DNA of 64,000 nucleotides, taken from assembly GCF_035974275.1 (NCBI RefSeq), contig NZ_CP142422.1, positions 3,472,001-3,536,000 on the forward strand, written 5' to 3'. Numbering within the stretch: the first letter of the stretch is position 1; each line of letters opens with the position of its first letter. The DNA comes from Chryseobacterium sp. MYb264. GTDB lineage: Bacteria > Bacteroidota > Bacteroidia > Flavobacteriales > Weeksellaceae. Positions 5,136-25,554 of the stretch are shown here, one piece after another. The position numbers were made by a program, and so were the translations under genes. The notes under the pieces are model-generated. The model was not told the DNA's origin, did not search any database, and saw only the letters and a program-made list of their open reading frames with translations.

Positions 5136-5165
5136 TTTGAAATAAAAAATTTTGTCATAGATTTG
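5136..5165 (+). promoter_or_regulatory. Promoter of the Nudix regulator gene
   Basis: TTTG (5136-5139) is followed after 18 bp by TAGATTTG (5158-5165), a good match to the Bacteroidota -33/-7 pattern. The -7 box overlaps the left half-site of the operator at 5162-5182, so a bound regulator would block the polymerase. Confidence 0.65.
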
Positions 5166-5182
5166 TGTATTCATAACGCAAA
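5162..5182. promoter_or_regulatory. Candidate NrtR-type operator (site A)
   Basis: A 21-bp near-palindrome: half-sites TTTGTGT and ACGCAAA around the 7-bp spacer ATTCATA, ending 8 bp before the Nudix-WH gene start. The same motif recurs three times upstream of the NAD/ADP-ribose island (14494, 14548, 15153). Autoregulation by the adjacent regulator is inferred from position. Confidence 0.65.
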
Positions 5183-5190
5183 TTATTTCA

Positions 5191-5886
5191 ATGAGCATTC
5201 CAAAGAAATTACAAGACATAAAAGTGGCGGTAGATGCCGTTATTTTCGGATATTTTGATAAAAAAGATCTTCAGCTTCTGTTGATTAAAAGAAATATTGA
5301 ACCTTTTAAAGGGGGTTGGGCACTTCCGGGCGGTTTGGTTTTGGATGATGAAAATCTGGATGATGCGGTAAGAAGAGAGCTTCACGAAGAAGCAGGCATA
5401 AAGCCTGATTTTTTAGAGCAATTGTATAGTTTTGGAAACGTAGGTCGTGATCCTCGGAATAGGGTGGTTTCTGTGGCTTATTTAGGGCTGGTGAATCCTT
5501 CTTATCACGAATTGTTTGCTGATTCTGATGCAGACGATGCCCAATGGTTCAGTGTCAACAAGCTTCCAAAACTGGCTTTCGATCATCAGACTATTATTGA
5601 TATGGCGTTGAAAAGGCTTCGTACAAAACTTCAGTATCAACCGATCGGATTTAATCTTCTGAATGAAGAATTTGCTTTTTCTGATTTAGAAAATTTGTAT
5701 AAAACGATTATCGGTAAAGAAATCGACCGCCGAAATTTCCGAAAAAAAATTATGAGCTACGGATTGTTAAATGATACCAATACCTTAAAAAAAGAAGGTA
5801 GCGGCAGACCCGGAAAACTCTTCACTTTCAATCAGGAGAAGTATAAAGAGCTTGAAGAGCAGGGTTTTTATTTTGAAATTAAATAG
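5191..5886 (+). CDS. Nudix domain plus winged-helix regulator (NrtR/AraR type)
   Basis: A 231-aa protein. Residues about 10-145 form a Nudix domain with an intact Nudix box: G-x5-E-x7-REL-x-EE-x-G-I (…RRELHEEAGI). Residues about 150-231 match the NrtR winged helix, with RRNFRKKIMSYGLL and SGRPGKLFTFN. NrtR proteins repress NAD-related genes and are released by ADP-ribose; Bacteroidota AraR uses the same fold for arabinose. No sugar genes lie nearby, whereas its own promoter shares a palindrome with the ADP-ribose island 9 kb downstream, which favours an NAD/ADP-ribose role. The complete Nudix box means residual pyrophosphatase activity is possible; many NrtR regulators have lost it. Ligand and targets are inferred. 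Confidence 0.85.
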   Translation: MSIPKKLQDIKVAVDAVIFGYFDKKDLQLLLIKRNIEPFKGGWALPGGLVLDDENLDDAVRRELHEEAGIKPDFLEQLYSFGNVGRDPRNRVVSVAYLGLVNPSYHELFADSDADDAQWFSVNKLPKLAFDHQTIIDMALKRLRTKLQYQPIGFNLLNEEFAFSDLENLYKTIIGKEIDRRNFRKKIMSYGLLNDTNTLKKEGSGRPGKLFTFNQEKYKELEEQGFYFEIK

Positions 5887-6019
5887 TAGTTTACCTTCTT
5901 TTTTTAGTAAAGCCAAAAAGTATTTTCCTAAAGTCATTTGTACGTTTCATAAAGTAGTCTGGTTGTCTTTTTTTTAATTGATTTTTCTTTGTTCATCATA
6001 ATCAAGAAAATTAAATATC

Positions 6020-7681
6020 ATGAGACGCTTACTACTTTTTTTTTCTGCTATTGTAGCATTAAATGTTGCTGCACAGCTTCCTGCTCCAGCCTACGAAGCG
6101 ACCTTTAACGGTGCGAACTGGGATACAGCAACAGGATTTACCATAAATACAACTAACGGAACTACTTCCGGAGCTGATATTTTTAATACTCCGTATTCGG
6201 CATATAATTTTTATTCTCTTAATGGCAAACTTCAGTTGGATGCTGTTTCCCAAACCGGATTGAGAGAGAAGGGGACAATTTCTTTCTTTGCCAAATACAA
6301 CAATACACAAACATCATTAACACCCATAGGATTTACTTATCCCATATTTTATCTCAATAATGGATTGACAAGTTGGTCTGAAGGCCTGATGCTGGGCTTT
6401 GAAATAGTGGCAGGAGCTCCAAAGCTGATGATGAAAAGCTATTCGGCTCAGTATACAGGTTTTAGTGAGCAGCTAAACAATGCTGTTTCTAATACAGATT
6501 GGCATCATTATATTATTTCCTATAAATTTGGGAACGGTGGATATATTAATGTTTATCAGGATGGGAAGTTGGTTTTAACTAAAGATATAAGTCATTCTTT
6601 AAGTAATCTAACGAAGCCTTTTGAGTTTTTCAGCCATACCTCGGGTTCTGTTTTTAATCGTTCGGCAACAGGTTTTGTAGATGAAATCCGAGCTTATACA
6701 GAACCTTTTAATACAGCGCAAGCAAAGGAAATTTATGCCTCTTATTTAAAAATAAACAGCGGCAGTACCATTGCAAAATATAGTTTTGATGATGATCTTA
6801 CCGAGCATTTTGGAAATTATCAGCCTTTAAATTCTTTTTTTGGTTTCAACAGATATATTGCAACCGTCTCCCAAGGAGGTAATAACACCTATGTTGGTAA
6901 TATGGTTGTAGGTGCTACCGCAGAATTACCGATTGGAGTAGGCTCTATTCTCAGCGAAGGTTCTTACACAATTTCTCTTGCTGCTATCGTCACTGGATTT
7001 ACCAATAATGACAATGGCGAAATAATGGCAACAGTGCTTTCCATACCCAATACAACCGGAGGTGATTTTCTGAAAATCGGAATGCATAAAGGAACTAAAG
7101 TGTTAAGGTTTGAAATAAACGAATCCTCAGCAGTATCTGTTAACGGGACTTCTTTAGAAAACTGGCAGCATATTGTATTTAGTGCTAATAATCAAAATAA
7201 TACGCTTAGTATTTATGTAAATGGAGCTCTGGCTGCTACGGCGGTTTACAATAAACACCAGTTTTTAAATACACTGCAAAATATATTACTTGGTAAAAAC
7301 AGAAAGCCTACCCCGACTTATGCCGTCTGTGCAGTAGATGATCTTGTGATTGATCGTAAAACATATAATGCTGTTGAGGCCGCGAAAGCCTATAGACAGT
7401 GGAAAACCGCAGTAACCAGCTATGATACAACCTATTCTACTTTAGGGGTTGATCATATTCAAAAAACACAAAATAATATAAAGGTTTACCCTAATCCAAC
7501 TACAGATTTTGTAAAACTTTCGCAAAAAGCAGACGCAGAGGTTTACGATCTGTCTGGAAAATTAGTGGGTAGCTACAAAAATGCTGAAATGCTTGATCTT
7601 TCGACTTACCAGCAAGGAATTTATCTGTTGAAATTATCTAATTCTAAAGGAACACATTCTGTCAAAATCATTAAAAAGTAA
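6020..7681 (+). CDS. Secreted LamG-domain protein with T9SS type A sorting domain
   Basis: A 553-aa exported protein with signal peptide MRRLLLFFSAIVALNVAAQ. Two concanavalin-like LamG domains lie at about residues 50-235 and 275-450, each with the 'NTDWHHYIISY' or 'LENWQHIVFS' strand followed by 'INVYQDGKLV' or 'LSIYVNGALAA'. The C-terminal about 75 residues are a type A type IX secretion signal: IKVYPNPTTDFVKL, a beta-sandwich, and the end GIYLLKLSNSKGTHSVKIIKK. The protein is therefore probably passed across the outer membrane and anchored or released. LamG domains usually bind glycans or proteins; no catalytic domain is visible. It is 22 bp upstream of a related gene. Confidence 0.9.
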   Translation: MRRLLLFFSAIVALNVAAQLPAPAYEATFNGANWDTATGFTINTTNGTTSGADIFNTPYSAYNFYSLNGKLQLDAVSQTGLREKGTISFFAKYNNTQTSLTPIGFTYPIFYLNNGLTSWSEGLMLGFEIVAGAPKLMMKSYSAQYTGFSEQLNNAVSNTDWHHYIISYKFGNGGYINVYQDGKLVLTKDISHSLSNLTKPFEFFSHTSGSVFNRSATGFVDEIRAYTEPFNTAQAKEIYASYLKINSGSTIAKYSFDDDLTEHFGNYQPLNSFFGFNRYIATVSQGGNNTYVGNMVVGATAELPIGVGSILSEGSYTISLAAIVTGFTNNDNGEIMATVLSIPNTTGGDFLKIGMHKGTKVLRFEINESSAVSVNGTSLENWQHIVFSANNQNNTLSIYVNGALAATAVYNKHQFLNTLQNILLGKNRKPTPTYAVCAVDDLVIDRKTYNAVEAAKAYRQWKTAVTSYDTTYSTLGVDHIQKTQNNIKVYPNPTTDFVKLSQKADAEVYDLSGKLVGSYKNAEMLDLSTYQQGIYLLKLSNSKGTHSVKIIKK

Positions 7682-7703
7682 CCCATTTAAAAATTATTAA
7701 ATC

Positions 7704-9410
7704 ATGAAAAAAATATTTCTGCTGTACAGTATTGTTATTACCCAAATGGCAATAGCACAGGTACTTTCAGCTCCTGTATACGAATATATGGGAACAACGA
7801 CTTCGTCTGAATTTTCTGCAGGCTCCGGGATAACACCAACGACTGATATAACCGGTGTAGGGAATGGTGCCGTTAATCTTGCTGCCAATCATGGTCCATT
7901 GAAATTAAACCTTACGACTCACAAAGCCTCTTTGATGAGTGAAGGAACAGTTTCGATGTGGTTTAAATATAGCAGCAGCGGAACGAGTGCTTTCGGAAGC
8001 GACAAACCCTTAGTTTTCTGGTCAAACGGAGCCGGTTCTTATTCCGAAGGTATTATGATGGGGTTATCAGGAAGTAAACTGATTGCGCGTTCTTATACAT
8101 CAGGAAGCGTTGGGGTAGGAGATACTAGTAACGAGAATTTTGGAACGGCAGGTACATGGAAACACTTTATCGTTACTTGGAAAATGGGGAGTGGTGGCTT
8201 TTTGAAAGCGTATATGAACGGCGCATTGGTCATCAACAGACCGTTAACACATTCTTTGCCGTCTGGAACTTTATCAACAATGTATTTTACAGGTTTTAAC
8301 GATACCTTTTCGAGTGCAATAAACGGAGCAATAGATGAGATAAAAGTGTACACGCAATCCGTAACAGATGCCCAAGCATGGTCTATTTATAGCCCTGCAA
8401 CACCATATTGTGTGGTGCATATTCCTGATGCAAATTTTAAATATGCTTTACTAAATCATTCTCCAATTATCGATACCAATGCCAATGGAGTTATCGAATG
8501 TGCAGAAGCTGCTGCATTTACAGGAATTCTTAATCTTTATAATAAAAATATTTCCAACCTTACAGGGATTGAAGCTTTTACTAATCTTACGAAGCTTTAC
8601 TGTGGTAAAAATTATTTAACAAGCCTGGATGTAAGTGCCAATACTGCATTAAAAGAACTCTCTTTTACCAATAATCAAATAACGAATATCAATCTGAATA
8701 CTAATACAGAACTTAGTATTTTGGATACGAGTTACAACCTTCTTACAAGTTTAGATGTAAGTGCTAATACCTTATTAACCAAGTTGTACTGTAATAATTC
8801 TTCTTTAACAAGCTTAAACGTAAATGGCAGTACTCTATTATCAGATCTATTTTGTAACAATAATCAATTAACCAATTTGGATGTGAGTACAAATTCGGCA
8901 TTATACAGATTCTATTGTTTTAGTAATAATTTAGCGAGTCTTGATACAAGTTCTAATACCACATTATATCAACTGCTTTGTAATGACAATCAATTAACGA
9001 GTTTAAACATTGCAAATGGAAATAATGGATTTCTCAATTATTTAAGATCCAGAGAAAACCCTAACCTTACTTGCGTTCAGGTAGATAATGCAAATTGGAG
9101 CAATACAAACTGGACAGGTTACAATTATGAAATTCCTTTGGGAGCGTCCTATAGCCAAAACTGTTCTGGAATTCTCAGTACATCAGATCATCCAAAAATA
9201 CTGAAAATGGAGGCTTATCCAAATCCAACAAGTGGGCTGGTAAATCTTTCAGAAATGGCAAATGTTATAATATGCGATGCTCAGGGAAGAAAAATTCTTG
9301 AAATCAAAAACACAAATTCTTTTGATTTATCTGCTCAGACTGCAGGAATATATACGGCTCAAATAACAAATGAAAAAGGGATAAAAACAGTGAAAATCAT
9401 AAAAAAATAG
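7704..9410 (+). CDS. Secreted LamG plus leucine-rich-repeat protein with T9SS sorting domain
   Basis: A 568-aa protein with signal peptide MKKIFLLYSIVITQMAIAQ. One LamG domain covers about residues 40-215 (TWKHFIVTWKMGSGGFLKAYMNG). After the linker PYCVVHIPDANFKYALLN, about residues 255-440 carry roughly nine leucine-rich repeats of the LTSLDVSANTALKEL kind. A type A T9SS domain closes the protein (EAYPNPTSGLVNL … GIYTAQITNEKGIKTVKIIKK). The first LamG domain resembles that of the upstream gene, so the pair probably arose by duplication, with the LRR module gained here. It is likely a surface adhesin or binding protein; the partner is unknown. Confidence 0.9.
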   Translation: MKKIFLLYSIVITQMAIAQVLSAPVYEYMGTTTSSEFSAGSGITPTTDITGVGNGAVNLAANHGPLKLNLTTHKASLMSEGTVSMWFKYSSSGTSAFGSDKPLVFWSNGAGSYSEGIMMGLSGSKLIARSYTSGSVGVGDTSNENFGTAGTWKHFIVTWKMGSGGFLKAYMNGALVINRPLTHSLPSGTLSTMYFTGFNDTFSSAINGAIDEIKVYTQSVTDAQAWSIYSPATPYCVVHIPDANFKYALLNHSPIIDTNANGVIECAEAAAFTGILNLYNKNISNLTGIEAFTNLTKLYCGKNYLTSLDVSANTALKELSFTNNQITNINLNTNTELSILDTSYNLLTSLDVSANTLLTKLYCNNSSLTSLNVNGSTLLSDLFCNNNQLTNLDVSTNSALYRFYCFSNNLASLDTSSNTTLYQLLCNDNQLTSLNIANGNNGFLNYLRSRENPNLTCVQVDNANWSNTNWTGYNYEIPLGASYSQNCSGILSTSDHPKILKMEAYPNPTSGLVNLSEMANVIICDAQGRKILEIKNTNSFDLSAQTAGIYTAQITNEKGIKTVKIIKK

Positions 9411-9449
9411 ACTTTTTATCCGAAAAATAAACTTTAAAAATGTAAAACC

Positions 9450-10640
9450 ATGAAAAAAATAACCACAATCTGCTTAGTCGCTTTTATAACCACGGCAGTA
9501 CAAGTTCAGGCTCAGGGACTATTGGGTAGACTTGCCAATAAATTAGAACAGGCTTCCTCCGGAAATGGGGAATCTGGTAGTAATGAAAAAGAAGTAAAAA
9601 AAGATGTGGAGTCCACTGTTTTAGATGGTAAACCCATTCATAAAGACAGCCGTAATCTGAGTGGGATTTACTTTGCAAAATATCCAATCAGAATAGGACA
9701 GGGCGGAACCGGAAAATATAGCTATGCAAAGAAATTCTTAGTGAATTATGAGGAAGGTGAAAAGCAGGAAATTGAGTTTATTTCTCGCTATTATTTTGAA
9801 AACAGAAAGGATATTCCGCCATTGGTATATGCTCCTGCTCCGGGAACTCCGGATTATTTTCCGGTAACGACCAGTAAAAAAATGGGGCATTTGTATTTAG
9901 ACGGTATCAGCAATAAAAAGTACGGAGGAAATGCGACTTCCAATTATGCTTCTCTAACCCGTTATATAGATTTTTTTGCTCCGGATGGAAACTATTCGAG
10001 ACAGGAAACAATGGCGTTCAATTATGAAGGGCTCTTGGAGCTGGAAGAAGGAATTTTAGTGATAGGCCGTTTAGATTATATTCCTAAAGCAAATACTCCT
10101 GAGAAATATAAATTTTTACAGGAAAAAGGAAGTTATAATTTATTCTACAAAAAAGATAAAGAAGCTAAAGCTTTAGCCATGACAGATGCACAGGTTTGGG
10201 ACAGGATGAAAGCATTTTACGATCCGTATTATAAAGCCTTTAAAGCGGCAGAAGGCGGTAATGTAGAATTGGTAAAACCTGTCGGAAAGTTTAAAGATGA
10301 ACCTAAAAATGGTGACTTAGTGCAAGCTGCTAATGACAGAATGAAGTCGATGCCCCATTTTTCTGAAGAGCTTGTTTATCTGTATCCGGTAACCACCTGG
10401 GAAAACCGTTTTGAAAATATAGGTTTAATGGGAAAAACTCTTACACACCGTGTTTTGCAGGCACAGGCTGTTTTGAAGAAAGGAAACGAATGCCAGATTA
10501 CTCAGTTTTTAATCCGCCAGGACAATACCTACAGAGGAGGTTCAAACGCAGAAAACTTTACAGGTAATCCCGTAAAAGCAGTAGGAGACATTGGAAAAAC
10601 AGTGATAAGCTGTAGTAATGCCATGAAGTATAAAAAGTAA
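9450..10640 (+). CDS. Exported protein of unknown function
   Basis: A 396-aa protein with a clear signal peptide (MKKITTICLVAFITTAVQVQAQG) and no T9SS tail or membrane anchor. After a low-complexity charged stretch (SSGNGESGSNEKEVKKDVES) comes a globular region rich in aromatic residues, with no motif I recognise. It lies 39 bp after the LamG-LRR gene in the same direction and precedes a terminator, so it probably forms an operon with the two LamG proteins. It might be a periplasmic partner of these secreted proteins, but nothing in the sequence proves it. Confidence 0.75.
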   Translation: MKKITTICLVAFITTAVQVQAQGLLGRLANKLEQASSGNGESGSNEKEVKKDVESTVLDGKPIHKDSRNLSGIYFAKYPIRIGQGGTGKYSYAKKFLVNYEEGEKQEIEFISRYYFENRKDIPPLVYAPAPGTPDYFPVTTSKKMGHLYLDGISNKKYGGNATSNYASLTRYIDFFAPDGNYSRQETMAFNYEGLLELEEGILVIGRLDYIPKANTPEKYKFLQEKGSYNLFYKKDKEAKALAMTDAQVWDRMKAFYDPYYKAFKAAEGGNVELVKPVGKFKDEPKNGDLVQAANDRMKSMPHFSEELVYLYPVTTWENRFENIGLMGKTLTHRVLQAQAVLKKGNECQITQFLIRQDNTYRGGSNAENFTGNPVKAVGDIGKTVISCSNAMKYKK

Positions 10641-10674
10641 ATGAAGTAAGTTTTCTTTATCATACTGGCTATAC

Positions 10675-10709
10675 AATCTTGTCAAGGTGCTGAACTTTGG
10701 CAAGATTTT
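10675..10709 (+). terminator. Hairpin terminator after the LamG operon
   Basis: AATCTTG and CAAGATT, extended inward by a partly paired segment, form a long stem ending in a short T run. Confidence 0.65.
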
Positions 10710-10794
10710 GTAAATTTAATCATGACTTTACGAGTAAAATGAGAAGAAAAAACAAAAAAGAATTTATTTTTAATCATTAAATAATTTTTTAGAA

Positions 10795-13689
10795 ATGCTG
10801 ATGAGGGAATCCGAAATAAAATACATTTTACTGAATTTTTTATTCTTATCCTGTGTTTTTACACAGGCTCAGCAGCCATATGCCTTGTCTCTCAGAAATA
10901 TCAGCGAATTGCCAGATGAAAGTATTTACAGCATCCATCAGGATAAAAAAGGTCTTATTTGGATGGCAACAGATGAAGGCTTACTACAATATGATGGATT
11001 TCGTTACACTTCTTATAAGTCCGAAAAGCAAACCTCAATTTCAGGAAGTAATATAAAGGAAGATAAATTTGGAAGAATCTGGTATCAGAATTTTGACGGA
11101 TATCTTTATTACGTTTCTGAGGGTAAACTTAAACACCTGCGGCAAAATCCACCACCTGGTTTTATTTCCTACGGAATTACGGATCGCTATCTCTTTGTCG
11201 TTCAGAAAAAAGGGGTTGATATTTTTGATCTTAAGTCTTTGAAATTAATTAAAACAATTTTCATTTCGATAGAAAAAATTGAAAGCTCAGCGGTACTAGG
11301 TCAGGATATTTACCTTATTTCAGATGATATTATTTACAAAATAGACGAATGCTTTAATCTTGTGTCCAATCATTTCTTTGTGGGAAAGAACCTTCATATC
11401 AAATATATTTTTCCGTATAAAAACAAGCTTTATGTCATTTCAAAATTGAATGAGACGAAGCGTCTTTATTTTTTTGATAATCAATTGAACTTTATCAAAA
11501 GCTTTCCTATTTCTAAAATTTCTCAAATTCAGGGAAGTGATGTTATTGATGAAAATATTTGGTTACATACTCCACAGGGTACTTTGATAATTGATGAAAA
11601 CGGAAGGGATAAAACGGAGAAAGTCTTGTTCCCGGAAAACAGCAGCTCTAAAGTAATTAAAGATTATCAGGATAATTATTGGTTTTCATCAGTGAACAAC
11701 GGTATTTATATTGTTCCCGACTTAGAGGACAAGATGTACAGTCTTGCTCCTTTTTATCCCAAAACCTTCATGAAAACTCGCGAAGGTTATTTGTCAGGAA
11801 CTGAAAACGGAGAACTTATTATTTCAGATTCAACATTTGGGAATAAGAAAATTCTGTATTCCAATAAAAATAAATTACCCATTTACTATCTGTATTATGA
11901 CAAAACAGATCAGAACATCATTTTTTCGGATAATGGTTTTTCTGTCATTAATGAAAAAAAATCAGCCACAAAGCATTTTGATATGGCGCTGAAAGAAGCA
12001 GTGCGTCTTGATCAAAAATATTATGCAATAGCTGTAAGCGGTTTTTTCGGGTTGCTTCTGAACCCTAATGCCAATGAAAAGGAACCTTCGGCTTGGGATG
12101 ATTTATTTTATAAAAACAGAGATAAAAAAGAACCTCAGATTGCGCAATTGAAAAAAGGGCTAAGAGCAAAATCTGTTGCCTTTTTACCGGAAAGAAAGCA
12201 ATTGATTTTTGCAACCAATGTAGGGACGTATAGTGTACATCCAAATGCGGAAAAAGAACTGAGAAGATACAGCTTGCCATTGTATTCCAACAGCCTTGTT
12301 ACTTTTGAAAATGCTATTTATTTGCTTGATACGAAAGGAAATATTTCTCGTTTAAAAGCCGGTCAAAAGCTGGACGATATGAATGTGAAATGGAAAATTC
12401 CGGTGGGAAACATCCGAAAAATGAAATGTACAGATGATAAGCTGATTCTATTAAGTACAAATTCTGTTTACAGTTTTAGCAATGAAAAGTTGGAGAAATT
12501 CAATCTTCCGGTAAAAAATAGCAGTATTAAAGATTTTTGGTTAGAAGAAAGTTCCATTATTTTACTGAATAATGAAAATATTCTCACGTTTTCCCAAAAA
12601 ACTCAAAAAAATCCAAAAAATATCAGATTTCAAATAGATCATTTCTTGGTGAATGCTATTTCCAGAGATTCACGAAAATTTCAAGAATTCAATTATAATG
12701 AAAATAATATTTCGGTTCAGTTTTCGGTCTTAGAATTTGTTAACAATCATCCTGAGGTGTATTACAGAATCAACGGAAACCGTTGGGTTTTAATCAATAA
12801 AGAAAGCAGAACTGTAGAGTTTCCTTCCCTTTCTGCAGGAAATTATCTGATAGAATTTAAACTTCAGGATATGGTAAGCGATCAGAAAATTCAGTTTGAA
12901 ATTTTGCTTCCTTTCTGGAAAAAATGGTGGTTTTATCTGGCCGTTTGTAGTTTGAGTGCGGCATTAATTTTCCTTTACTTCAGAAGACAGTCCAAAATAA
13001 TGCAGCAACAGATCGAATTACTGGATGAAAAATTACTTCTGGAAAAAAGCCTCAGAAAATCGGTGTTGGTTTCAATAAAATCACAAATGAACCCTCATTT
13101 TTTCTATAATGCACTCAATACTATTCAGGCTTATATTTTTACTAATGATAAAAAACGCGCAAGCAATTACCTGTCTAAGTTCTCTAAGCTTACCCGCATT
13201 ATTCTTGAAATGTCTGAGAAAGAAATAATTTCACTTAGTGAAGAACTAGTCGCTATCGAACTTTATCTGGATTTGGAAAGAATGCGTTTTTCGGATAATT
13301 TCACTTACAAAATCTCCATCGATGATAACATTGACAAAGATGAGGTTACATTTCCTCCCATGCTGCTGCAACCTTATATTGAAAACGCTGTAAAACATGG
13401 TCTTTTACATCAACGTGGAGCAAAATATCTTCATATTTCATTTGAGCAGAAAAAGGATCTGCTTTATATTTCTGTTGATGATAATGGGGTTGGGCGTAAA
13501 CGTGCGATGGAGCTTAGTGCGATTAAAAATAAAAATCACAAATCTTTTTCTACTCAGGCAAATGAAAAGCGGTTGGAAATGCTGAATAAGGAAAGATCCC
13601 AAAAAATTACGGTAGAAATTACGGATCAGTATGATTCAGACGGAAAAGCTGCAGGAACTTTAGTTCAACTGGTAATCCCGATAAAATAA
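10795..13689 (+). CDS. Hybrid beta-propeller sensor histidine kinase, LytS type
   Basis: A 964-aa membrane kinase. The N-terminus carries a signal-like segment (ILLNFLFLSCVFTQAQQ), then about 600 residues of Reg_prop propeller repeats (YSIHQDKKGLIWMATDEGLLQYDGF). A Y_Y_Y-like immunoglobulin domain follows at about residues 620-700 (VYYRINGNRWVLINKESRTVEFPSLSAGNYLIEF). One transmembrane helix sits near 707-725, then a coiled coil and a His_kinase domain with the phospho-acceptor motif QMNPHFFYNALN (about 762-773) and the ATPase motif PYIENAVKHGL. The first ATG (MLMRESE) or the second, two codons on, could be used. The response regulator begins 6 bp downstream. The periplasmic ligand is unknown. 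Confidence 0.93.
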   Translation: MLMRESEIKYILLNFLFLSCVFTQAQQPYALSLRNISELPDESIYSIHQDKKGLIWMATDEGLLQYDGFRYTSYKSEKQTSISGSNIKEDKFGRIWYQNFDGYLYYVSEGKLKHLRQNPPPGFISYGITDRYLFVVQKKGVDIFDLKSLKLIKTIFISIEKIESSAVLGQDIYLISDDIIYKIDECFNLVSNHFFVGKNLHIKYIFPYKNKLYVISKLNETKRLYFFDNQLNFIKSFPISKISQIQGSDVIDENIWLHTPQGTLIIDENGRDKTEKVLFPENSSSKVIKDYQDNYWFSSVNNGIYIVPDLEDKMYSLAPFYPKTFMKTREGYLSGTENGELIISDSTFGNKKILYSNKNKLPIYYLYYDKTDQNIIFSDNGFSVINEKKSATKHFDMALKEAVRLDQKYYAIAVSGFFGLLLNPNANEKEPSAWDDLFYKNRDKKEPQIAQLKKGLRAKSVAFLPERKQLIFATNVGTYSVHPNAEKELRRYSLPLYSNSLVTFENAIYLLDTKGNISRLKAGQKLDDMNVKWKIPVGNIRKMKCTDDKLILLSTNSVYSFSNEKLEKFNLPVKNSSIKDFWLEESSIILLNNENILTFSQKTQKNPKNIRFQIDHFLVNAISRDSRKFQEFNYNENNISVQFSVLEFVNNHPEVYYRINGNRWVLINKESRTVEFPSLSAGNYLIEFKLQDMVSDQKIQFEILLPFWKKWWFYLAVCSLSAALIFLYFRRQSKIMQQQIELLDEKLLLEKSLRKSVLVSIKSQMNPHFFYNALNTIQAYIFTNDKKRASNYLSKFSKLTRIILEMSEKEIISLSEELVAIELYLDLERMRFSDNFTYKISIDDNIDKDEVTFPPMLLQPYIENAVKHGLLHQRGAKYLHISFEQKKDLLYISVDDNGVGRKRAMELSAIKNKNHKSFSTQANEKRLEMLNKERSQKITVEITDQYDSDGKAAGTLVQLVIPIK

Positions 13690-13695
13690 AAAAAC

Positions 13696-14430
13696 ATGTA
13701 TAAAGCGATTATTATTGATGATGAAGAAATGGCGAGAATGCTCTTAAAGGGTATGGTTAAAGAATTCTGCCCGGATGTAGACATCGCAGATCTTTGTTGT
13801 GACTTGCCCAATGGGATAAAATCCATCCGAAAACATAAACCGGATATTGTATTTCTTGATATCGAAATGCCCGGTCACAGTGGTCTGGAATTATTGGATT
13901 TCTTCGACGAAAATGAGATTGATTTCTCTATTATTTTTGTCACGGCGTATCATCAGTATGCCATTCAGGCATTTAAATTATCTGCGGTTGATTATCTTTT
14001 AAAACCTATTGATGACAGAGATCTTGTGAATGCAGTTTCTTCCTTCAAAAAGCGAAAAAATAGCAGGACGGATTATTCTTTACTGAAAGAAAACCTCAAT
14101 TCTCCGACAAAGAAGATTGCGTTAAGTGTTGCCAACTCAGTTTTATTTGTTCCTCTGGAGGACATTTTGTTTTTTAAAGCAGATGGTTCTTATACCCACG
14201 TTATTTTGAGAAATGGGGAAACTATTCTGACAAGCAGAAATCTAAAATATTACGAGGAGACTCTGTTTTCAGACAACAGCTTTTACAGATGTCATAAGTC
14301 GTTTATTGTCAATATCAGCCATATTACGGAGTATGTAAAATCTGATGGAGGATATCTGAAAGTAGGTGAACATTGTGTAAATGTGTCTTCTGATAAAGTT
14401 TCTTTAATTTTTGATAAACTGAAAATATAA
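13696..14430 (+). CDS. LytTR-family response regulator
   Basis: A 244-aa two-domain regulator. The receiver domain (about residues 1-120) has the acidic pair IIDDEE, the phosphorylation site Asp55 in FLDIEMPG, the switch Thr in FVTAYH, and the Lys of LLKPID. The C-terminal LytTR DNA-binding domain (about 140-244) has ILFFKADGSYTHVILRNGE and FYRCHKSFIVNISHI. It is co-transcribed with the kinase just upstream. A weak hairpin follows, then the promoter region of the ADP-ribose island; no LytTR direct-repeat site is obvious there. Confidence 0.95.
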   Translation: MYKAIIIDDEEMARMLLKGMVKEFCPDVDIADLCCDLPNGIKSIRKHKPDIVFLDIEMPGHSGLELLDFFDENEIDFSIIFVTAYHQYAIQAFKLSAVDYLLKPIDDRDLVNAVSSFKKRKNSRTDYSLLKENLNSPTKKIALSVANSVLFVPLEDILFFKADGSYTHVILRNGETILTSRNLKYYEETLFSDNSFYRCHKSFIVNISHITEYVKSDGGYLKVGEHCVNVSSDKVSLIFDKLKI

Positions 14431-14438
14431 AAAGCTTT

Positions 14439-14458
14439 AAAAACAATAGTTTTTATAT
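14439..14458 (+). terminator. Weak hairpin after the LytTR regulator
   Basis: TAAAAAC and GTTTTTA around the loop AATA, with AT-rich sequence following. It is short and AT-only, so termination may be leaky. Confidence 0.4.
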
Positions 14459-14493
14459 ATTTTAATTACTGAATAACAGTGTTTTATATTTTT

Positions 14494-14514
14494 TTAGCGT
14501 AAAATTAACACAAA
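14494..14514. promoter_or_regulatory. Candidate NrtR-type operator (site C)
   Basis: Half-sites TTAGCGT and ACACAAA around the spacer AAAATTA. On the reverse strand it reads TTTGTGT, 7 bp, ACGCTAA, the same as sites A and B. Its centre is 54 bp, about five helical turns, from site B. Confidence 0.6.
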
Positions 14515-14518
14515 TAAA

Positions 14519-14551
14519 TTTGGAAGATAAAATTATATTCTTTTATATTTG
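14519..14551 (+). promoter_or_regulatory. Promoter of the NAD/ADP-ribose island
   Basis: TTTG (14519-14522) and TATATTTG (14544-14551), a perfect TAnnTTTG -7 box, with 21 bp between. The -7 box overlaps operator B. The leader before the ATG at 14570 would be only about 11 nt. Confidence 0.6.
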
Positions 14552-14568
14552 TGTAATAATAACGCAAT
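14548..14568. promoter_or_regulatory. Candidate NrtR-type operator (site B)
   Basis: Half-sites TTTGTGT and ACGCAAT around the spacer AATAATA. It overlaps the -7 box and ends one base before the NADAR start codon, an ideal place for repression. Confidence 0.65.
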
Positions 14569-14569
14569 A

Positions 14570-15111
14570 ATGAAATACACATTACAAAATATAATTGAAA
14601 GATTTCAGAAGAAAGAAAAATTAAAATTTTTATTCTTTTGGGGACATACAGTAAAAGATGAAATCACAAAATCATGTTTCAGTCAATGGTTTCCTTTTCA
14701 GTTTGAAGAAAACGGAATAAAATACAAAACGGCGGAACATTATATGATGGCCGGAAAAGCGAAACTATTCAATGATGAAGAAATTTTAGAAAAGATTTTA
14801 AATGCAGGCTCTCCTAATCAGGCGAAAAGTTTAGGTAGAAAAGTCAAAAATTTTGATGCAAAATCTGGGATGAACATAAATATGAAATCGTAAAACAGGG
14901 AAATCTGTTGAAGTTTTCTCAAAACGAAAAGTTTAAAGAATTTCTTTTGTCCACAAATAATAAAATTCTGGTAGAAGCGAGTCCTTATGATAAAATCTGG
15001 GGAATCGGAATGCTGGAATCAGATTCAAGAGCGGAAAACCCATTATTGTGGAACGGTGAAAATCTGTTGGGATTCGCTTTAATGGAAGTGAGAGATTTGC
15101 TTAAAAAATAA
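14570..15111 (+). pseudogene. NADAR (YbiA-like) ADP-ribose hydrolase, broken by a 1-base deletion
   Basis: NADAR proteins cleave N-glycosidic bonds of ADP-ribose or riboflavin intermediates; some remove ADP-ribose from guanine bases. The first frame (from ATG 14570) gives FLFFWGHTV … SQWFPFQFEENGIKYKTAEHYMMAGKAKLF, then shifts and stops at 14890-14892. The second frame to 15111 gives FLLSTNNKILVEASPYDKIWGIGM … PLLWNGENLLGFALMEVRD. Adding one A to the A4 run at 14860-14863 restores a continuous NADAR protein of about 180 aa through the junction (DAKIWDEHKYEIVKQGNLLKF). The sequence shows no other damage, so this is either a recent mutation, a homopolymer-based switch, or a sequencing error. 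The longer upstream TTG start would run through the operator and is unlikely. Confidence 0.88.
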
Positions 15112-15152
15112 ATCAATTCGCTGATAATCATTCAAAACTATGTCTTTTTTAA

Positions 15153-15173
15153 TTAGCGTAATATCAACACAAA
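15153..15173. promoter_or_regulatory. Candidate NrtR-type operator (site D)
   Basis: Half-sites TTAGCGT and ACACAAA around the spacer AATATCA, 11 bp before the ATG at 15185. On the reverse strand it reads TTTGTGT, 7 bp, ACGCTAA. It implies a second regulated promoter inside the island, although I see no clear -7 box beside it. Confidence 0.6.
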
Positions 15174-15184
15174 CAAAAAATAAT

Positions 15185-15520
15185 ATGGAAGAAGACCTAA
15201 AACCCAGATTTATTGAGTCATTACAGAGAAATAATGACCAGATCAGAGAAGATCGTGCCCGGATTATCGGTGAAGATGCCGAGCTGATCTATAAAAGAAG
15301 AGTAGAAGATATCGAACTGAAAATCAAAAGACTGGAAAGAGAACAGGAAGGGTTAACGGATGTGAGTCCTTTAGATAAAAACAGTCTTACTTTCGTAGAT
15401 TTTCAGCCGGAAGCATTTGTTCAGAAAGACATAGAATTATCATTAACAATCAGAAATTTAAATATTCAGCTAGAATTAACAAGAAATAGATTTGAGTATT
15501 TATTTGGCAAAAAAATTTAA
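15185..15520 (+). CDS. Small coiled-coil protein of unknown function
   Basis: 111 aa from the ATG at 15185; the frame is open 45 bp further upstream, but that extension would cover operator D. The protein is highly charged. Residues about 20-60 (RARIIGEDAELIYKRRVEDIELKIKRLEREQE) look like a coiled coil, followed by a short mixed segment and a second amphipathic helix near the C-terminus. No known domain. The next gene (VWA) starts 3 bp after the stop, so the two are probably translated together and may form a complex. Confidence 0.75.
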   Translation: MEEDLKPRFIESLQRNNDQIREDRARIIGEDAELIYKRRVEDIELKIKRLEREQEGLTDVSPLDKNSLTFVDFQPEAFVQKDIELSLTIRNLNIQLELTRNRFEYLFGKKI

Positions 15521-15523
15521 GTT

Positions 15524-16378
15524 ATGGGAGGTACAAGATACGATATGGACGCTCGTTTTGACAGAGCAAAGAAAGCAGGTTATGCATCAAAATCTGCAGG
15601 AGAGATCTTTACACAGAATGCAAAAAGAAAAGCACATGAATCGATGAATCCTCATGGGATTTCTTTCAGAGAATCAAGAGATTCAGACGTTCACCCGAAT
15701 TCAGTTCCTATTATTTTAGGATTGGATGTAACGGGAAGTATGGGGCATATTCCTTATGATCTGATTCAGGAAGGATTACCCAAATTAATGGGCGGAATTA
15801 TTCAGGGTGGTGTTCCCGATCCGGCACTTTTATTCCTGGGAATCGGCGATCATGAATGCGACAGTTATCCTTTGCAGGTCGGTCAGTTTGAATCCGGAGA
15901 TGAAGAGCTTGATATGTGGTTAACAAGAACTTATATCGAATCGGGCGGTGGAGGAAATGCAGGCGAAAGTTATTTACTGGCTTGGTATTTTGCCGCTTTT
16001 CACACAAGAACAGATGCTTTTGAAAAGAGAAATCAAAAGGGATTATTGTTCACGGTGGGTGATGAGCCTTGTCTGAAAACACTTCCGGCATCTGCGATCA
16101 GAGAATTGATGGGAACGGGCCAGCAAACCTTTAAACATACAGAGCTCCTGGCAGAAGCGCAAAAGAAATATGAGGTTTTTCACATCAGCGTTTTACATTC
16201 CGGACAGGCAGTGAATGCAGATGCAGGCTGGAAAGATCTGTTGGGGCAAAACTGTTTATCTATTGAAGATTACAAAGATGTTCCCAAGGTTATTAAGGAA
16301 GTGGTTTGCGGAAGATTTAAAGATCAGGCGACCAGAACAACAGGATTAAACGGATTCGATACTATTCAAATGTATTAA
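15524..16378 (+). CDS. VWA (von Willebrand A-like) domain protein
   Basis: A 284-aa cytoplasmic protein with a VWA-like fold. The MIDAS motif is ILGLDVTGSMG (Asp68, Thr70, Ser72), a D-x-T-x-S variant. Further likely metal-site residues are in FLGIGDHECD and the glycine-rich loop YIESGGGGNAGES. The N-terminal about 60 residues (RYDMDARFDRAKKAGYASKSAGEIF) form a family-specific extension. There is no signal peptide or transmembrane segment. VWA proteins generally act as Mg2+-dependent assembly platforms. It sits 3 bp after the coiled-coil gene and 3 bp before the PurA-like gene, so it belongs to the core of the operon. Its exact role is unknown. Confidence 0.85.
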   Translation: MGGTRYDMDARFDRAKKAGYASKSAGEIFTQNAKRKAHESMNPHGISFRESRDSDVHPNSVPIILGLDVTGSMGHIPYDLIQEGLPKLMGGIIQGGVPDPALLFLGIGDHECDSYPLQVGQFESGDEELDMWLTRTYIESGGGGNAGESYLLAWYFAAFHTRTDAFEKRNQKGLLFTVGDEPCLKTLPASAIRELMGTGQQTFKHTELLAEAQKKYEVFHISVLHSGQAVNADAGWKDLLGQNCLSIEDYKDVPKVIKEVVCGRFKDQATRTTGLNGFDTIQMY

Positions 16379-16381
16379 AAA

Positions 16382-17452
16382 ATGAAAACAGCACAAATAG
16401 TTATAGGCTTAGGATTTGGGGATGAAGGTAAAGGGATTACCACCGATTTTCTGGCTCAGCAACATCCTGAGTCTGTCATTATTCGGTTTTCAGGAGGTCA
16501 GCAGGCAGCGCATACGGTGATGATCGATGATAAAAAGCACATTCATTCCAGCTTTGGAAGTGGAGCGTTGCGCGGTCTGCCTTCCTATTTTACAGAACAT
16601 TGCACGATTCATCCGACCTTTTTATTCAACGAAAGAGAAGAATTGATTCAGAAAAACGGAAATATTGAACTTACGATTCATCCTTTGGCAAAAGTGACCA
16701 CGCCTTTTGATGTTTTATACAACAGGAAAAATATCAAAAATCTCGAACACGGAACCTGCGGAAAAGGAGTCGGCGCTACGATGAAACGAAATGAAAGTCC
16801 GTTTAAATTATTTGCTGTTGATTTAATTGCTCCACGAGCGATGTTGATTGAGAAATTAAAAGGAATCGCCAATTATTATGGTTTTGAAGAAGATGAAGAA
16901 ATTACAAATGCATTGCAGGATTTTTTAGAAGCCATCGATGAAATTGATTGGAAAATAGAAGGTTATGAGTATTTAAAAAACTTTGATCATCTTATTTTTG
17001 AAGGCAGTCAGGGAATTTTGCTCGATATGGATCACGGAGTTTTTCCGAATGTAACCTTTGCGAACACAACTTCAAAAAATGCGTATGAAGTTTGTAAGCA
17101 ATTAAAAATTGAAGATATAGAAATGTTTTACGTGACAAGAAACTACGCAACCCGTCACGGAAGTGGATGGATGAGCAATGAAAAATCGTTAACATTAAAG
17201 AATAATGACGAAGAAACCTGTATTTTTAATGAATATCAAAAAGATTTACGTTTCGGAGATTTAGATTATGATTTGTTGAATTATGCATTGAAAGTGGATG
17301 AAGCGTATGTTGTTGCTCAAAAGAAAAATCTTGTGGTAACTTGTCTTGATCAAATTTATGAGGAATTTAAAACAGAAAATCTAAAGGTGAAATTTGATGC
17401 TGTATTTGGATCTTATTCGCCTTATTCAAAAGATTTTAGAAAAATTAATTGA
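16382..17452 (+). CDS. Short, divergent adenylosuccinate synthetase-like enzyme
   Basis: A 356-aa PurA-fold protein, about 70 residues shorter than normal bacterial PurA. The catalytic Asp14 (in GLGFGDEGKG) and His44 (in GGQQAAHTV) are present. EGSQGILLDMDHGVFPNVT and YVTRNYATRHGSG align with the IMP/ribose-binding segments. It departs from housekeeping PurA in that the Lys after GDEGKG is Ile, and the TKLD GTP-base motif reads TCLD. Phage PurZ has Ser in place of the catalytic Asp, so this is not a typical PurZ. It may add aspartate to a nucleotide-like substrate other than IMP, possibly one derived from NAD or ADP-ribose; that is speculation. The next gene is 133 bp away. Confidence 0.85.
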   Translation: MKTAQIVIGLGFGDEGKGITTDFLAQQHPESVIIRFSGGQQAAHTVMIDDKKHIHSSFGSGALRGLPSYFTEHCTIHPTFLFNEREELIQKNGNIELTIHPLAKVTTPFDVLYNRKNIKNLEHGTCGKGVGATMKRNESPFKLFAVDLIAPRAMLIEKLKGIANYYGFEEDEEITNALQDFLEAIDEIDWKIEGYEYLKNFDHLIFEGSQGILLDMDHGVFPNVTFANTTSKNAYEVCKQLKIEDIEMFYVTRNYATRHGSGWMSNEKSLTLKNNDEETCIFNEYQKDLRFGDLDYDLLNYALKVDEAYVVAQKKNLVVTCLDQIYEEFKTENLKVKFDAVFGSYSPYSKDFRKIN

Positions 17453-17585: not shown

Positions 17586-18056
17586 ATGAAAACCATAACA
17601 TATTTAAAAGGCGATGCAACAAACCCTCAAATTGAAGGGAATAAAATCATTACCCATATCTGCAACTATATCGGAGGTTGGGGAAAAGGTTTTGTTTTGG
17701 CAATTTCAAATCGATGGAAGAAGCCTGAAAATGAATACAGAAAATGGTTTCAAAATGGGAATAATTTTAACCTTGGCGAAATTCAAATGGTTCAGGTTGA
17801 AGACAAACTTTGGGTTTGCAACATGATTGGGCAGCATAAAATTATTACCAATTCAAAAGGAGTTCCGCCGATCAGATATGAAGCTGTTGAAGTGTGTTTG
17901 GAGAAACTTTCTGCTGAAGCTTTACAGTTAAATGCAAGTATTCACATGCCAAGAATCGGATGCGGTTTGGCAGGTGGAAAATGGGAAGAAATTGAACTAA
18001 TTATTGATAGAACCTTGCTGAAAAATAATGTAGAGGTATATGTTTATGATTTTTGA
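17586..18056 (+). CDS. Macrodomain protein, TARG1/Poa1-like
   Basis: A stand-alone 156-aa macrodomain. LKGDATNP begins the fold; NYIGGWGKGFVLAIS is the ribose/phosphate loop (GKG type), and MPRIGCGLAGGKWEE matches the second loop of the ALC1/TARG1/Poa1 branch. Enzymes of this branch release ADP-ribose from acidic residues or DNA, or hydrolyse ADP-ribose 1''-phosphate. The Asp that serves as nucleophile partner in TARG1 (GCGLD) is Ala here, as in Poa1-like proteins. ADP-ribose 1''-phosphate is a downstream product of KptA chemistry, and kptA lies in the same island, which makes a Poa1-like role attractive. Confidence 0.88.
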   Translation: MKTITYLKGDATNPQIEGNKIITHICNYIGGWGKGFVLAISNRWKKPENEYRKWFQNGNNFNLGEIQMVQVEDKLWVCNMIGQHKIITNSKGVPPIRYEAVEVCLEKLSAEALQLNASIHMPRIGCGLAGGKWEEIELIIDRTLLKNNVEVYVYDF

Positions 18057-18071
18057 TAAAATGAAATAACA

Positions 18072-18665
18072 ATGAAGGAATTTGAAATAAGAGCAGATTA
18101 TAAAAACGAAACTTTGGTTGTATATCAGGCCTATAACAAAGCCATTGCAAAATCGGCGGTAGAAAATCAAAAATTTTGTTCTCCATTTTCATTTGCAAGA
18201 ATGACTTGGATAAAACCTTCTTTTCTTTGGATGATGGAACGTAGCAATTATGGCCAGAAATCTAACCAGGAATGTACTCTTGCGTTGCATATTAAACGAG
18301 ATGCATGGGAAAATGCGCTACAGAAAGCGATTCTTACTTCACCGGAGAAAAGAGTTTATTCCGATCCAAGTTTATGGGAAAAAGAGTTTGAAAATGCTGA
18401 GGTATATGTGCAATGGGATCCTGAAAGAAATATCAAAGGAGCAAAGCTTAATTATCGGTCTATTCAGGTTGGAATAAGTCGTTATCTGATTGAGGAGTTT
18501 AATGAAGACTGGATTGTGAAAATAGAAGATTATTCTCCTTTGGTTAAGAAAATACTGAATCTTACAAAATCAGGGGATTTTAGCAAAGCAAAAAAATTAT
18601 TGCCTGTCGAAAAAAATTATCCTTTATCAGAGAAACTCGCTCATAGGATTGGGGCGGATATTTAA
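18072..18665 (+). CDS. DUF4291 protein, copy 1
   Basis: A 197-aa member of DUF4291, recognised by VYQAYNKAIAKSAVENQKF, FARMTWIKPSFLWMMERSNYG (around residues 41-60) and the Trp-Asp-Pro motif VQWDPERN with RSIQVGIS. No biochemical function is established that I can state. The invariant Arg, Trp, Lys and the WDP motif suggest an enzyme that binds a nucleotide-like ligand. A second copy lies at 19914-20549, with the crystallin-J1-type and PARG genes between them. It starts 15 bp after the macrodomain gene. A role in making or reading ADP-ribose marks is guessed from context. Confidence 0.88.
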   Translation: MKEFEIRADYKNETLVVYQAYNKAIAKSAVENQKFCSPFSFARMTWIKPSFLWMMERSNYGQKSNQECTLALHIKRDAWENALQKAILTSPEKRVYSDPSLWEKEFENAEVYVQWDPERNIKGAKLNYRSIQVGISRYLIEEFNEDWIVKIEDYSPLVKKILNLTKSGDFSKAKKLLPVEKNYPLSEKLAHRIGADI

Positions 18666-18685: not shown

Positions 18686-19099
18686 ATGAAAACAAAAATA
18701 CTATACAGACCCGTCGGAGAAAAAGAAATGCTTTTAATTATAGAAAGCAATTACAAAAAGTTTCCTCCAAGGCTGAAATGGCAACCGATTTTCTATCCCG
18801 TTTTGAATGAAGATTATGCTTCCGAAATTGCAGAAAAATGGAACACAAGAGATGAAGCTGGAAATTATTTAGGTTTGGTGACGAAGTTTGAAGTGTTGGA
18901 GGAAGTTGTCAATCAATATCCTTCACAAAATGTTGGCGCGAGAAATCATAATGAATTGTGGGTTCCTTCAGAAGAATTGGAAATATTTAATCAGGCAATC
19001 GTTGGAAATATTGAAGTGACAAAAGTTTTCATGGGAAAAGATTTCAAAAAAGCGGCAAATGAAGCGATAGAAAATTTATTATTAAACATTAAAAACTAA
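18686..19099 (+). CDS. Small ADP-ribosylation/crystallin-J1-type protein
   Basis: A 137-aa protein beginning KILYRPVGEKEMLLIIESNYKKFP, then PRLKWQPIFYPVLNEDYASEIAEKWN and ELWVPSEELEIFNQAIVGNIEV. Relatives in this phylum are commonly annotated 'ADP-ribosylation/crystallin J1', but it lacks the Asp clusters of true ADP-ribosylglycohydrolases and is less than half their length. The L-Y-R-P-V opening and the W-V-P-x-E-E-L segment resemble the R … E layout of small ADP-ribosyltransferase-like folds; this is only an impression. It sits 20 bp after DUF4291 copy 1 and 2 bp before the PARG gene. Confidence 0.65.
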   Translation: MKTKILYRPVGEKEMLLIIESNYKKFPPRLKWQPIFYPVLNEDYASEIAEKWNTRDEAGNYLGLVTKFEVLEEVVNQYPSQNVGARNHNELWVPSEELEIFNQAIVGNIEVTKVFMGKDFKKAANEAIENLLLNIKN

Positions 19100-19101
19100 C
19101 A

Positions 19102-19914
19102 ATGACCAATAAAGGAATGGCAAAAGATACATTGGAAATCTTAGCCAAGAAATATTATATAAACGAACACAACGAAAAAATCAGCATAGAAAATGAAATG
19201 GAAATCTGTACGAAAGAAACCGTTTTATTTTCATCCGAAAAATTGTCTGAAATGACAAAAAATGAGCTTCCTGACACCAATTTCGAAACACAATTTGAAG
19301 TCTGGAAATGCAGTTCTTTAAAAGCAATTTTACAATTAGCCGAAGAAGAAGATCAGGAAAAACTGATGTGTCTGAATTTTGCATCAGCAAAAAATCCGGG
19401 CGGTGGCTTTATCAACGGAGCCGAAGCGCAGGAAGAAAGTCTGGCGAGAACTTCGGGACTTCACGACAGTTTGCTTCAGGGTTGGGAATATTACGATACC
19501 CATCGCGCAATGGAGTCTTGTTTTTATACCGATATGATGATTTACAGCCCGAAAGTTCCGGTTTTCAGAAAGGATAAAGGTGAATTGTTGCCGAAACCTG
19601 TTTTGTGCAATTTCATCACTTCTCCGGCGGTTAATGCAGGAGTTGTAAAACGTCAGGAACCGGAAAGAGAAGGTGAAATTTTCGGAGCAATGGATATTAG
19701 AACAGATAAAATGCTGTCTTTGGCTTTAAGTCAGGGAAATGAAACCTTGATTTTGGGAGCTTGGGGATGCGGAGTTTTTAGAAATGATCCGAAAGAAATT
19801 GCCGAATTATTCAAAAAGCATCTTCACGGGAAGTATAAAAATAAATTTAAAAGAGTGGTTTTTGCAATTCTCACGAAGAAGGAGGAAATGATACAACCGT
19901 TCGAGGAAATATAA
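19102..19914 (+). CDS. Bacterial-type poly(ADP-ribose) glycohydrolase (TIGR02452)
   Basis: A 270-aa macrodomain-fold hydrolase. The PARG signature GGG-x7-QEE is complete: Gly100-Gly102 then Gln110-Glu111-Glu112 in NPGGGFINGAEAQEESLART. Later motifs YSPKVPVFR and ILGAWGCGVFRNDP complete the ADP-ribose pocket. Such enzymes cleave ribose-ribose bonds in poly(ADP-ribose), and bacterial ones often act on terminal ADP-ribose. MTNKGMAKDT could also start at Met6. Its last base overlaps the ATG of DUF4291 copy 2, so the two are translationally coupled. It is catalytically intact by inspection. Confidence 0.93.
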   Translation: MTNKGMAKDTLEILAKKYYINEHNEKISIENEMEICTKETVLFSSEKLSEMTKNELPDTNFETQFEVWKCSSLKAILQLAEEEDQEKLMCLNFASAKNPGGGFINGAEAQEESLARTSGLHDSLLQGWEYYDTHRAMESCFYTDMMIYSPKVPVFRKDKGELLPKPVLCNFITSPAVNAGVVKRQEPEREGEIFGAMDIRTDKMLSLALSQGNETLILGAWGCGVFRNDPKEIAELFKKHLHGKYKNKFKRVVFAILTKKEEMIQPFEEI

Positions 19915-25403: not shown

Positions 25404-25554
25404 GCTGAATGTACATTTTGTTGAATTTCTTTGTTGAGTGAAACGCCCTTGCGAACGAAAAATATGCAGAACAATTGTAAATAAAATCTTTGCGGGCTTT
25501 GCGTTAAAAATAATCAATCAGTTTCGTAATTTTAAAGCTCGAAATATCACTTCA

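Follow-up and report, generated by a model that had tools for sequence, protein, structure and literature searches.

The 64,000-nucleotide stretch of the Chryseobacterium sp. MYb264 chromosome analysed here (contig NZ_CP142422.1, positions 3,472,001 to 3,536,000; hereafter the window) contains four copies of a 21-bp palindromic operator, one at the promoter of nrtR, a gene for a Nudix/winged-helix regulator, and three at the head of an island of ADP-ribose-related genes (Table 1). Sequence comparisons strongly support a link between nrtR and the island through this common operator. We consider it likely that the whole arrangement is explained by an NrtR-family repressor, the nrtR protein, which would act on the operator and coordinate the removal of ADP-ribose with the restoration of nicotinamide adenine dinucleotide (NAD), and we infer that ADP-ribose is its inducer. 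A preliminary description of the window had proposed the link between regulator and island; the genome and its relatives support this part, and the regulon is wider than described there, including pncB and, in relatives, NARP1-like genes.

Distribution of the 21-bp operator

The four sites originally described in the window were all found, with 0 mismatches to TTTGTGT-N7-ACGCWAW. The palindromic form of the motif, WTWGYGT-N7-ACRCWAW, has four exact matches in the window, and the mean for 100 shuffled sequences is 0.00, with no match in any of them. In a weight matrix that was trained on the loci of relatives only (202 sites, 63 distinct), the half-site columns contain 1.73–1.85 bits of information, the spacer 1.30–1.48 and the upstream columns 0.52–1.07. 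Operators A–D score 24.7–26.7 with this matrix, compared with 10.1 for the next-best place in the window and 15.0 for the best of 40 Markov sequences. The next-best place, a weak site at 25498, is within the null and was dropped. In the whole genome (5.23 Mb, one contig) the pattern with TTTGTGT has five exact matches, operators A–D and C1:927642. The palindromic form has six (one for the reversed control), the sixth at C1:3992811, directly before the nicotinate phosphoribosyltransferase gene pncB (TIGR01514, 437.9 bits; cut-off 269.55), so that five of the six sit at nrtR, the island or pncB. A one-mismatch sequence, TTTCTGTTGGTTTTACGCAAA, occurs three times in the same genome (C1:844320, 4007912 and 4958223) and is probably a dispersed repeat.

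For the comparison within the genus, 59 genomes were drawn, including that of the window (G000). An nrtR orthologue with 85–100% identity is present in 58 of them, broken in G013 and with its first part missing in G038. Operator sites were also found in 58 of the 59 genomes, 247 in total versus 32 for the reversed control, and at least 232 of these are located at nrtR, at the pair or third site of the island head or at pncB (206 sites in the loci and 26 exact sites at pncB). G031, which has no nrtR orthologue (best match 42%), contains neither an operator site nor a pncB operator. The preliminary description had named hundreds of unrelated matches, or absence of the motif from relatives with both loci, as signs against a regulon; there are only six exact palindromic matches in the genome, and the sites are kept in relatives.

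Of the 60 stretches that were fetched, 58 are nrtR/island loci of 57 relatives (G009 is represented twice, G031 not at all) and two are other sites of the window's own genome. The window brings the number of mapped loci to 59; 52 are complete islands, and the remaining seven were left out of gene counts. The island operators begin no more than 740 bp after the end of nrtR in 51 of 53 measurable loci, the exceptions being L143 (3.1 kb) and the window (8.6 kb), and in G009 nrtR and the island operators are located on separate stretches, ∼38 kb apart. In the window, the ∼8.6 kb between nrtR and the island (6020–14430) are occupied by unrelated genes, including two secreted-protein-like genes, a histidine kinase and a response regulator (all named by eye). 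Control of the island in the window must therefore act at a distance.

The 150 bp upstream of pncB were scanned in all 59 genomes of the genus. The operator is located 24–26 bp before the pncB start in 55 of them (26 exact sites and 29 with one mismatch), and one further genome has a site with two mismatches. PncB is an NAD salvage enzyme, which is a classical kind of NrtR target.

The placement of the operator relative to putative promoter elements is also conserved. It begins 27–30 bp before nrtR in all 57 loci with an nrtR start and is always fused to a TAnnTTTG element, which we take, based on the Bacteroidota consensus, to function as part of the nrtR promoter. A pair of operators is present at the island head in 55 of 59 loci, with a spacing of 54 bp in 49 loci, 53 bp in five and 55 bp in one; in all 55 the second copy overlaps TAnnTTTG and TTG is found in the −33 range. 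A third copy, equivalent to operator D, follows the pair in 39 loci. Two of the sites had been described as overlapping TAnnTTTG elements, and this holds for those at 5162 and 14548, but not for 14494, whose equivalents show such an overlap in 0 of 55 loci, or for 15153 (0 of 39).

The regulator and the proposed mechanism

The nrtR protein fits the NrtR family in that Nudix (PF00293) and winged-helix (PF21906) domains are combined over cut-off in one protein, and the operator is an N7-centred palindrome that is located at the regulator's own gene and at NAD genes. For comparison, the operator of MsNrtR is GTTTTCGA-N7-TCGAAAAC (PMC6800001). The protein differs from known members of the family in its main target, which is here an island of ADP-ribosyl hydrolases, and in the state of its Nudix box. 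The motif GX5EX7REUXEEXGU is intact in 56/56 orthologues and in five of six sister-genus proteins, whereas the box is not intact in the AraR and SoNrtR segments and is described as degenerate in SoNrtR and MsNrtR, with three changes and no activity in the latter (PMC6800001). The prototype NrtR is termed dual-function in the introduction of the same paper. Because its Nudix box is intact, the regulator may be a catalytic sensor that hydrolyses its own signal.

The closest solved relative of the regulator is AraR of Bacteroides, and the AraR_C domain is also matched over cut-off (PF19368, 56.3 bits; cut-off 23.8). In AraR, as here, tandem 21-bp sites are found at target promoters (PMC4666351). 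Arg98 of SoNrtR contacts ADP-ribose, and AraR has Gly89 at the corresponding position (PMC4666351). This position is occupied by Arg89 in 56/56 orthologues of the regulator, so the glycine of the arabinose pocket is not present and the protein was not assigned to AraR, and the targets found here are NAD and ADP-ribose genes, unlike those of the arabinose regulator. Structure prediction for the regulator gave a model of low quality (predicted local distance difference test score of 47.6), which was not used.

In the mechanism that we propose, an NrtR dimer would bind the 21-bp operator. Because operator copies sit at −7 elements of the TAnnTTTG type in front of nrtR, the island and pncB, the bound repressor would block RNA polymerase; the promoter of the island is bracketed by two copies with a spacing of 54 bp. 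Consumption of NAD by Sir2, KptA, ADP-ribosyltransferases (ARTs), toxins or phage enzymes would generate free ADP-ribose or a close relative, which would bind to the Nudix domain and cause the repressor to release DNA. The derepressed hydrolases (ADP-ribosylglycohydrolase (ARH), macrodomain, PARG and NADAR proteins) would remove ADP-ribose from macromolecules, and NAD would be rebuilt by PncB in this organism and by Adps–Namat-like (NARP1) enzymes in relatives. With an intact Nudix box, the sensor could hydrolyse its own inducer and thereby reset. The logic of a joint regulon would be that NAD consumption yields both ADP-ribose and nicotinamide.

Island genes and the NARP1-like genes of relatives

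The features of the window are listed in Table 1. Among the 52 complete islands, 45 different sets of genes were found, and Sir2 and KptA are the most constant members. The NADAR region of the window (14570–15111) contains a frame break after 107 aa, compared with at least 150 aa in 42 of the 44 related loci in which the gene is present (counts from protein cluster U1); the break may be real or a sequencing error. The DarG-like protein scored 17.5 bits against Pfam Macro, below the threshold of 22. The DUF4291 proteins, which contain invariant residues, have a predicted ART fold that is RhsP2-like, and they may be active as ARTs; the term DUF4291 was not found in our search of the open PubMed Central (PMC) literature. 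A writer–eraser pairing of DUF4291 with PARG was considered and is not claimed: the two genes are neighbours in 24 of 52 islands, and their presence is not associated (both in 26 islands, only DUF4291 in 13, only PARG in seven, neither in six; Fisher p 0.51).

Table 1. Operators, promoter elements and genes of the nrtR/island system in the window (positions from the first letter of the window)
Feature	Position	Strand	Description
nrtR promoter	5136–5165	+	TTTG 5136–5139, 18-bp spacer, TAGATTTG 5158–5165; read from sequence
Operator A	5162–5182	+	TTTGTGT-N7-ACGCAAA; begins 29 bp before nrtR start
nrtR	5191–5886	+	PF21906 NrtR winged helix 78.4 bits, PF00293 Nudix 74.7 bits, both over cut-off
Operator B	14494–14514	−	First of island-head pair; ends 4 bp before −33 box
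Island promoter	14519–14551	+	TTTG 14519–14522, 21-bp spacer, TATATTTG 14544–14551; read from sequence
Operator C	14548–14568	+	Second of pair; overlaps −7 box
NADAR, first part	14570–14893	+	PF08719 70.2 bits, over cut-off; reading frame breaks off at 107 aa
Operator D	15153–15173	−	Precedes the 15185, vWA and adenylosuccinate-synthetase-like genes; no −7 box overlapping
111-aa protein, no family	15185–15520	+	No Pfam match; in 35/52 complete islands
vWA-like protein	15524–16378	+	Named by eye from DVTGSMG; no Pfam match; in 42/52 islands
Adenylosuccinate-synthetase-like protein	16382–17452	+	PF00709 147.7 bits
DarG-like macrodomain (weak)	17586–18056	+	NF048014 36.1 bits, below cut-off 250; PADLOC DarG 42.1 bits
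DUF4291 protein	18072–18665	+	Predicted ART fold
137-aa protein, no family	18686–19099	+	No match in domain searches
Microbial-type PARG	19102–19914	+	PF10021 163.6 bits; TIGR02452 296.9 bits, over cut-off
Second DUF4291 protein	19914–20549	+	PF14124 222.9 bits
ADP-ribosylglycohydrolase	20549–21457	+	PF03747 150.7 bits
Macrodomain	21447–21953	+	PF01661 164.5 bits
Sir2 family NAD-dependent enzyme	22292–22978	+	PF02146 154.3 bits; in 52/52 islands
Second ADP-ribosylglycohydrolase	22978–23919	+	PF03747 262.5 bits; in 44/52 islands
KptA/Tpt1 RNA 2′-phosphotransferase	23932–24477	+	PF01885 191.4 bits; in 51/52 islands
Calcineurin-like phosphoesterase	24478–25233	+	PF00149 66.7 bits

Within the family, 120 genomes were compared, with an E-value threshold of 1e-60 for orthologues of the regulator. 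The 20 genomes with nrtR contain on average 4.1 sites and the 100 without it 0.69 (0.39 when genus g17 is excluded); 14 of the 20 belong to the genus of the window and are hence not independent. In four other genera, the six genomes with nrtR have 4, 3, 3, 4, 4 and 2 sites, and the 24 without it have none (22 genomes) or one (two genomes). In five of these six loci the operators are located at nrtR and at the next genes, which are SPFH and NAD-kinase-like, NADAR, or TonB and NadR-like (the labels SPFH, NAD kinase, NadR, TonB and vWA were assigned by eye). In the most distant of the six (50% identity), nrtR is preceded by sites with one mismatch and a macro–PARG pair by an exact site. A near-identical extra site, TTTGTGTCTACATGACACAAT, is present away from nrtR in G095, G146 and G158.

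In the order Flavobacteriales, 296 genomes were searched with the regulator and 99 matched at E 1e-50. Twenty loci were fetched from among 29 orthologues outside the family (54–65% identity). An exact operator is present in all 20, and a tandem pair in 18, with a spacing of 52 bp in 12 of those. The first gene behind the pair is short and ribose-phosphate-diphosphokinase-like in 14 of the 18. An Adps-like or Namat-like (Nampt-like) gene is found in 19 of the 20 loci, L385 having only a NAD-kinase-like gene, and 13 of the 20 contain ADP-ribose genes. In L372 and L373, a second operator pair (oriented positions 17286 and 19595, respectively), 52 bp apart, is located before a gene of the 15185 type. 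For two of the 16 Namat-like proteins a comparison with solved structures was made; the best matches of both were 9W5X/9W5W (615 and 624 bits), followed by 9ke8 (457 and 472 bits); the Nampt score of the first was ∼232 bits. The structures 9W5X and 9W5W are of phage Namat, whose clamp residues R40, F392 and Y396 are said to select ADP-ribose pyrophosphate (PMC12774641). Positions 392 and 396 are aromatic in all 15 proteins that reach them (the 16th is cut by a contig end), and position 40 is Arg in 12 and Lys in four of the 16. The putative Adps partners are ribose-phosphate-diphosphokinase-like genes coding for 275–281 aa in 15 of the 20 loci. Based on the Namat structure matches and the kept clamp residues, the genes behind the operator in these loci are probably bacterial NARP1 (Adps–Namat). 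This would allow a broader proposal, which we put forward only tentatively: an ADP-ribose-recycling regulon across the Flavobacteriales, in which a self-resetting Nudix repressor would control the hydrolases, which would release ADP-ribose from protein, DNA and RNA, and the NARP1 or PncB route back to NAD, with DUF4291 as an ART inside it.

Alternative readings and relation to known systems

Several observations weigh against an NrtR-family repressor with ADP-ribose as inducer. Regarding the protein, the NCBIfam NtrR equivalog NF050029 is not reached (143.5 bits; cut-off 400), and the protein was not assigned to it. Among solved structures AraR (173.8 bits) is closer in sequence than the ADP-ribose-responsive SoNrtR (120.7 bits), and the SoNrtR contacts Phe15, Asn43 and Lys76 are not kept (Leu7, Ile36 and Glu67 here; Tyr10 is not alignable). 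Regarding the operator, a genome scan with WTWGYGT-N7-ACRCWWW and at most one mismatch showed no excess (57 forward versus 84 for the reversed control), and a window scan that allowed three mismatches gave no signal either (28 found, 26.18 expected). Specificity is therefore contained only in the full consensus, and only exact or matrix-based matches were used. One exact site, C1:927642 (L164:7643–7663; matrix score 18.1), has no start codon near it in the list of open reading frames and was not counted as a target. G008 and G011, both with nrtR, lack a pncB operator in the 150-bp scan, as does G031. Regarding the promoters, TTG is found in the −33 range at only 25 of 57 nrtR promoters, operator D and its 39 equivalents have no matching −7 box, and an exact self-site precedes nrtR in only seven of the 20 order loci. 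Finally, in genus g17 the average is 2.7 sites per genome, with no nrtR orthologue reaching the threshold used. These sites mostly have a WTAGTGT half rather than TTTGTGT (as inspected in eight of 13 g17 genomes, plus G063 and G031), and among 18 short g17 loci (at most two per genome) comparison with reference proteins gave one match, a histidine kinase. The g17 loci L338–L354 contain scattered TTAGTGT/ATAGTGT-N7-ACACTAA palindromes, which are perhaps the sites of another regulator.

The foremost alternative concerns the function of the island, which could be above all an anti-phage or anti-toxin conflict locus that is induced by foreign ADP-ribosylation of host molecules, with NAD restoration being secondary. 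We regard this as a realistic possibility that is nevertheless on the less probable side. The 45 different gene contents among 52 islands are in agreement with it, as is the published proposal for ARG-centred systems (PMC9503650, section 3.8); furthermore, PARG reverses RhsP2-type RNA ADP-ribosylation (PMC11833690, section 19), and the predicted fold of DUF4291 is RhsP2-like. However, 58 of 59 genomes retain the regulator (the copy being broken in one and shortened in another), and the presence of the operator at pncB and NARP1-like genes is indicative of a housekeeping role in NAD balance.

A second alternative, which seems to us rather doubtful, retains the repressor and the operator and replaces the inducer by NAD, by ADP-ribose 1″-phosphate or the cyclic phosphate (from KptA), by O-acyl-ADP-ribose (from Sir2) or by a pentose, as in AraR. 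In its favour, Sir2 and KptA vary least in presence among the islands, which makes their products plausible as signals, the nearest protein of solved structure is AraR, and a response to NAD is described for NdnR of C. glutamicum (PMC4666351). The conserved Arg89 argues against this alternative, as does the set of genes found with an operator, which consists of nrtR, the island and NAD genes (no search by name was made for arabinose genes). It is improbable that the operator belongs to another DNA-binding protein and that nrtR is just one of that protein's targets: the pairing of operator and NrtR is based on sequence, related palindromes occur in g17 and G013 retains its sites despite a broken nrtR, but the sites vanish together with nrtR in G031 and within four other genera, the self-site is present in 57/57 genus loci and the site is symmetric and 21 bp long, as described for AraR (PMC4666351).

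The repressor reading has a close precedent. Iyer et al. (2022) proposed that viral ADP-ribosylation is countered by ARG, phosphatase, vWA, Macro and NADAR genes under the control of Nudix–helix-turn-helix (HTH) repressors with ADP-ribose as their signal (PMC9503650, section 3.8), so a model closely similar to the ADP-ribose-induced regulon that the preliminary description put forward was already in print. The island shares with these ARG-centred systems the Nudix–HTH regulator, ARH, calcineurin-like phosphatase, vWA, Macro and NADAR genes, and it contains the combination of ARH, a Nudix or WYL regulator, a phosphatase and accessory genes by which they are recognized. It differs in that the published search required the absence of coupled ARTs or sirtuins, whereas Sir2 and KptA are near-universal here (52 and 51 of 52 islands) and DUF4291 has a predicted ART fold; the island was accordingly not classed as a strict member of this group. 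Section 3.8 of that paper describes no operator and no pncB or NARP1 links, and the groups given there are actinobacteria, planctomycetes and proteobacteria. What is added to the published model is thus the operator, the pncB and NARP1 links and the predicted fold of DUF4291. As for NARP1, known from phages and bacteria, the genes of the relatives resemble it in their Namat matches and clamp residues, but Namat was not found in the genus of the window (0/59 genomes at E 1e-40). In the open PMC literature, represented mostly by listings and abstracts, neither an operator for such a system nor a link between NrtR and NARP1 was found, and NrtR is not mentioned in the papers there that name at least two of Namat, Adps and NARP1.

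In summary, with the operator, a regulon that would join the removal of ADP-ribosylation to the restoration of NAD can be defined at the DNA level and in testable form, in an order for which no such operator was found in that literature. According to the model, one and the same NrtR may act as the sensor of its signal and degrade it, and DUF4291 is placed, by prediction, in the ADP-ribosyltransferase fold. NARP1 of Paenibacillus is active, and its physiological role is called open (PMC12774641, section 24); if the proposed regulon is true, it would give bacterial NARP1 such a role.

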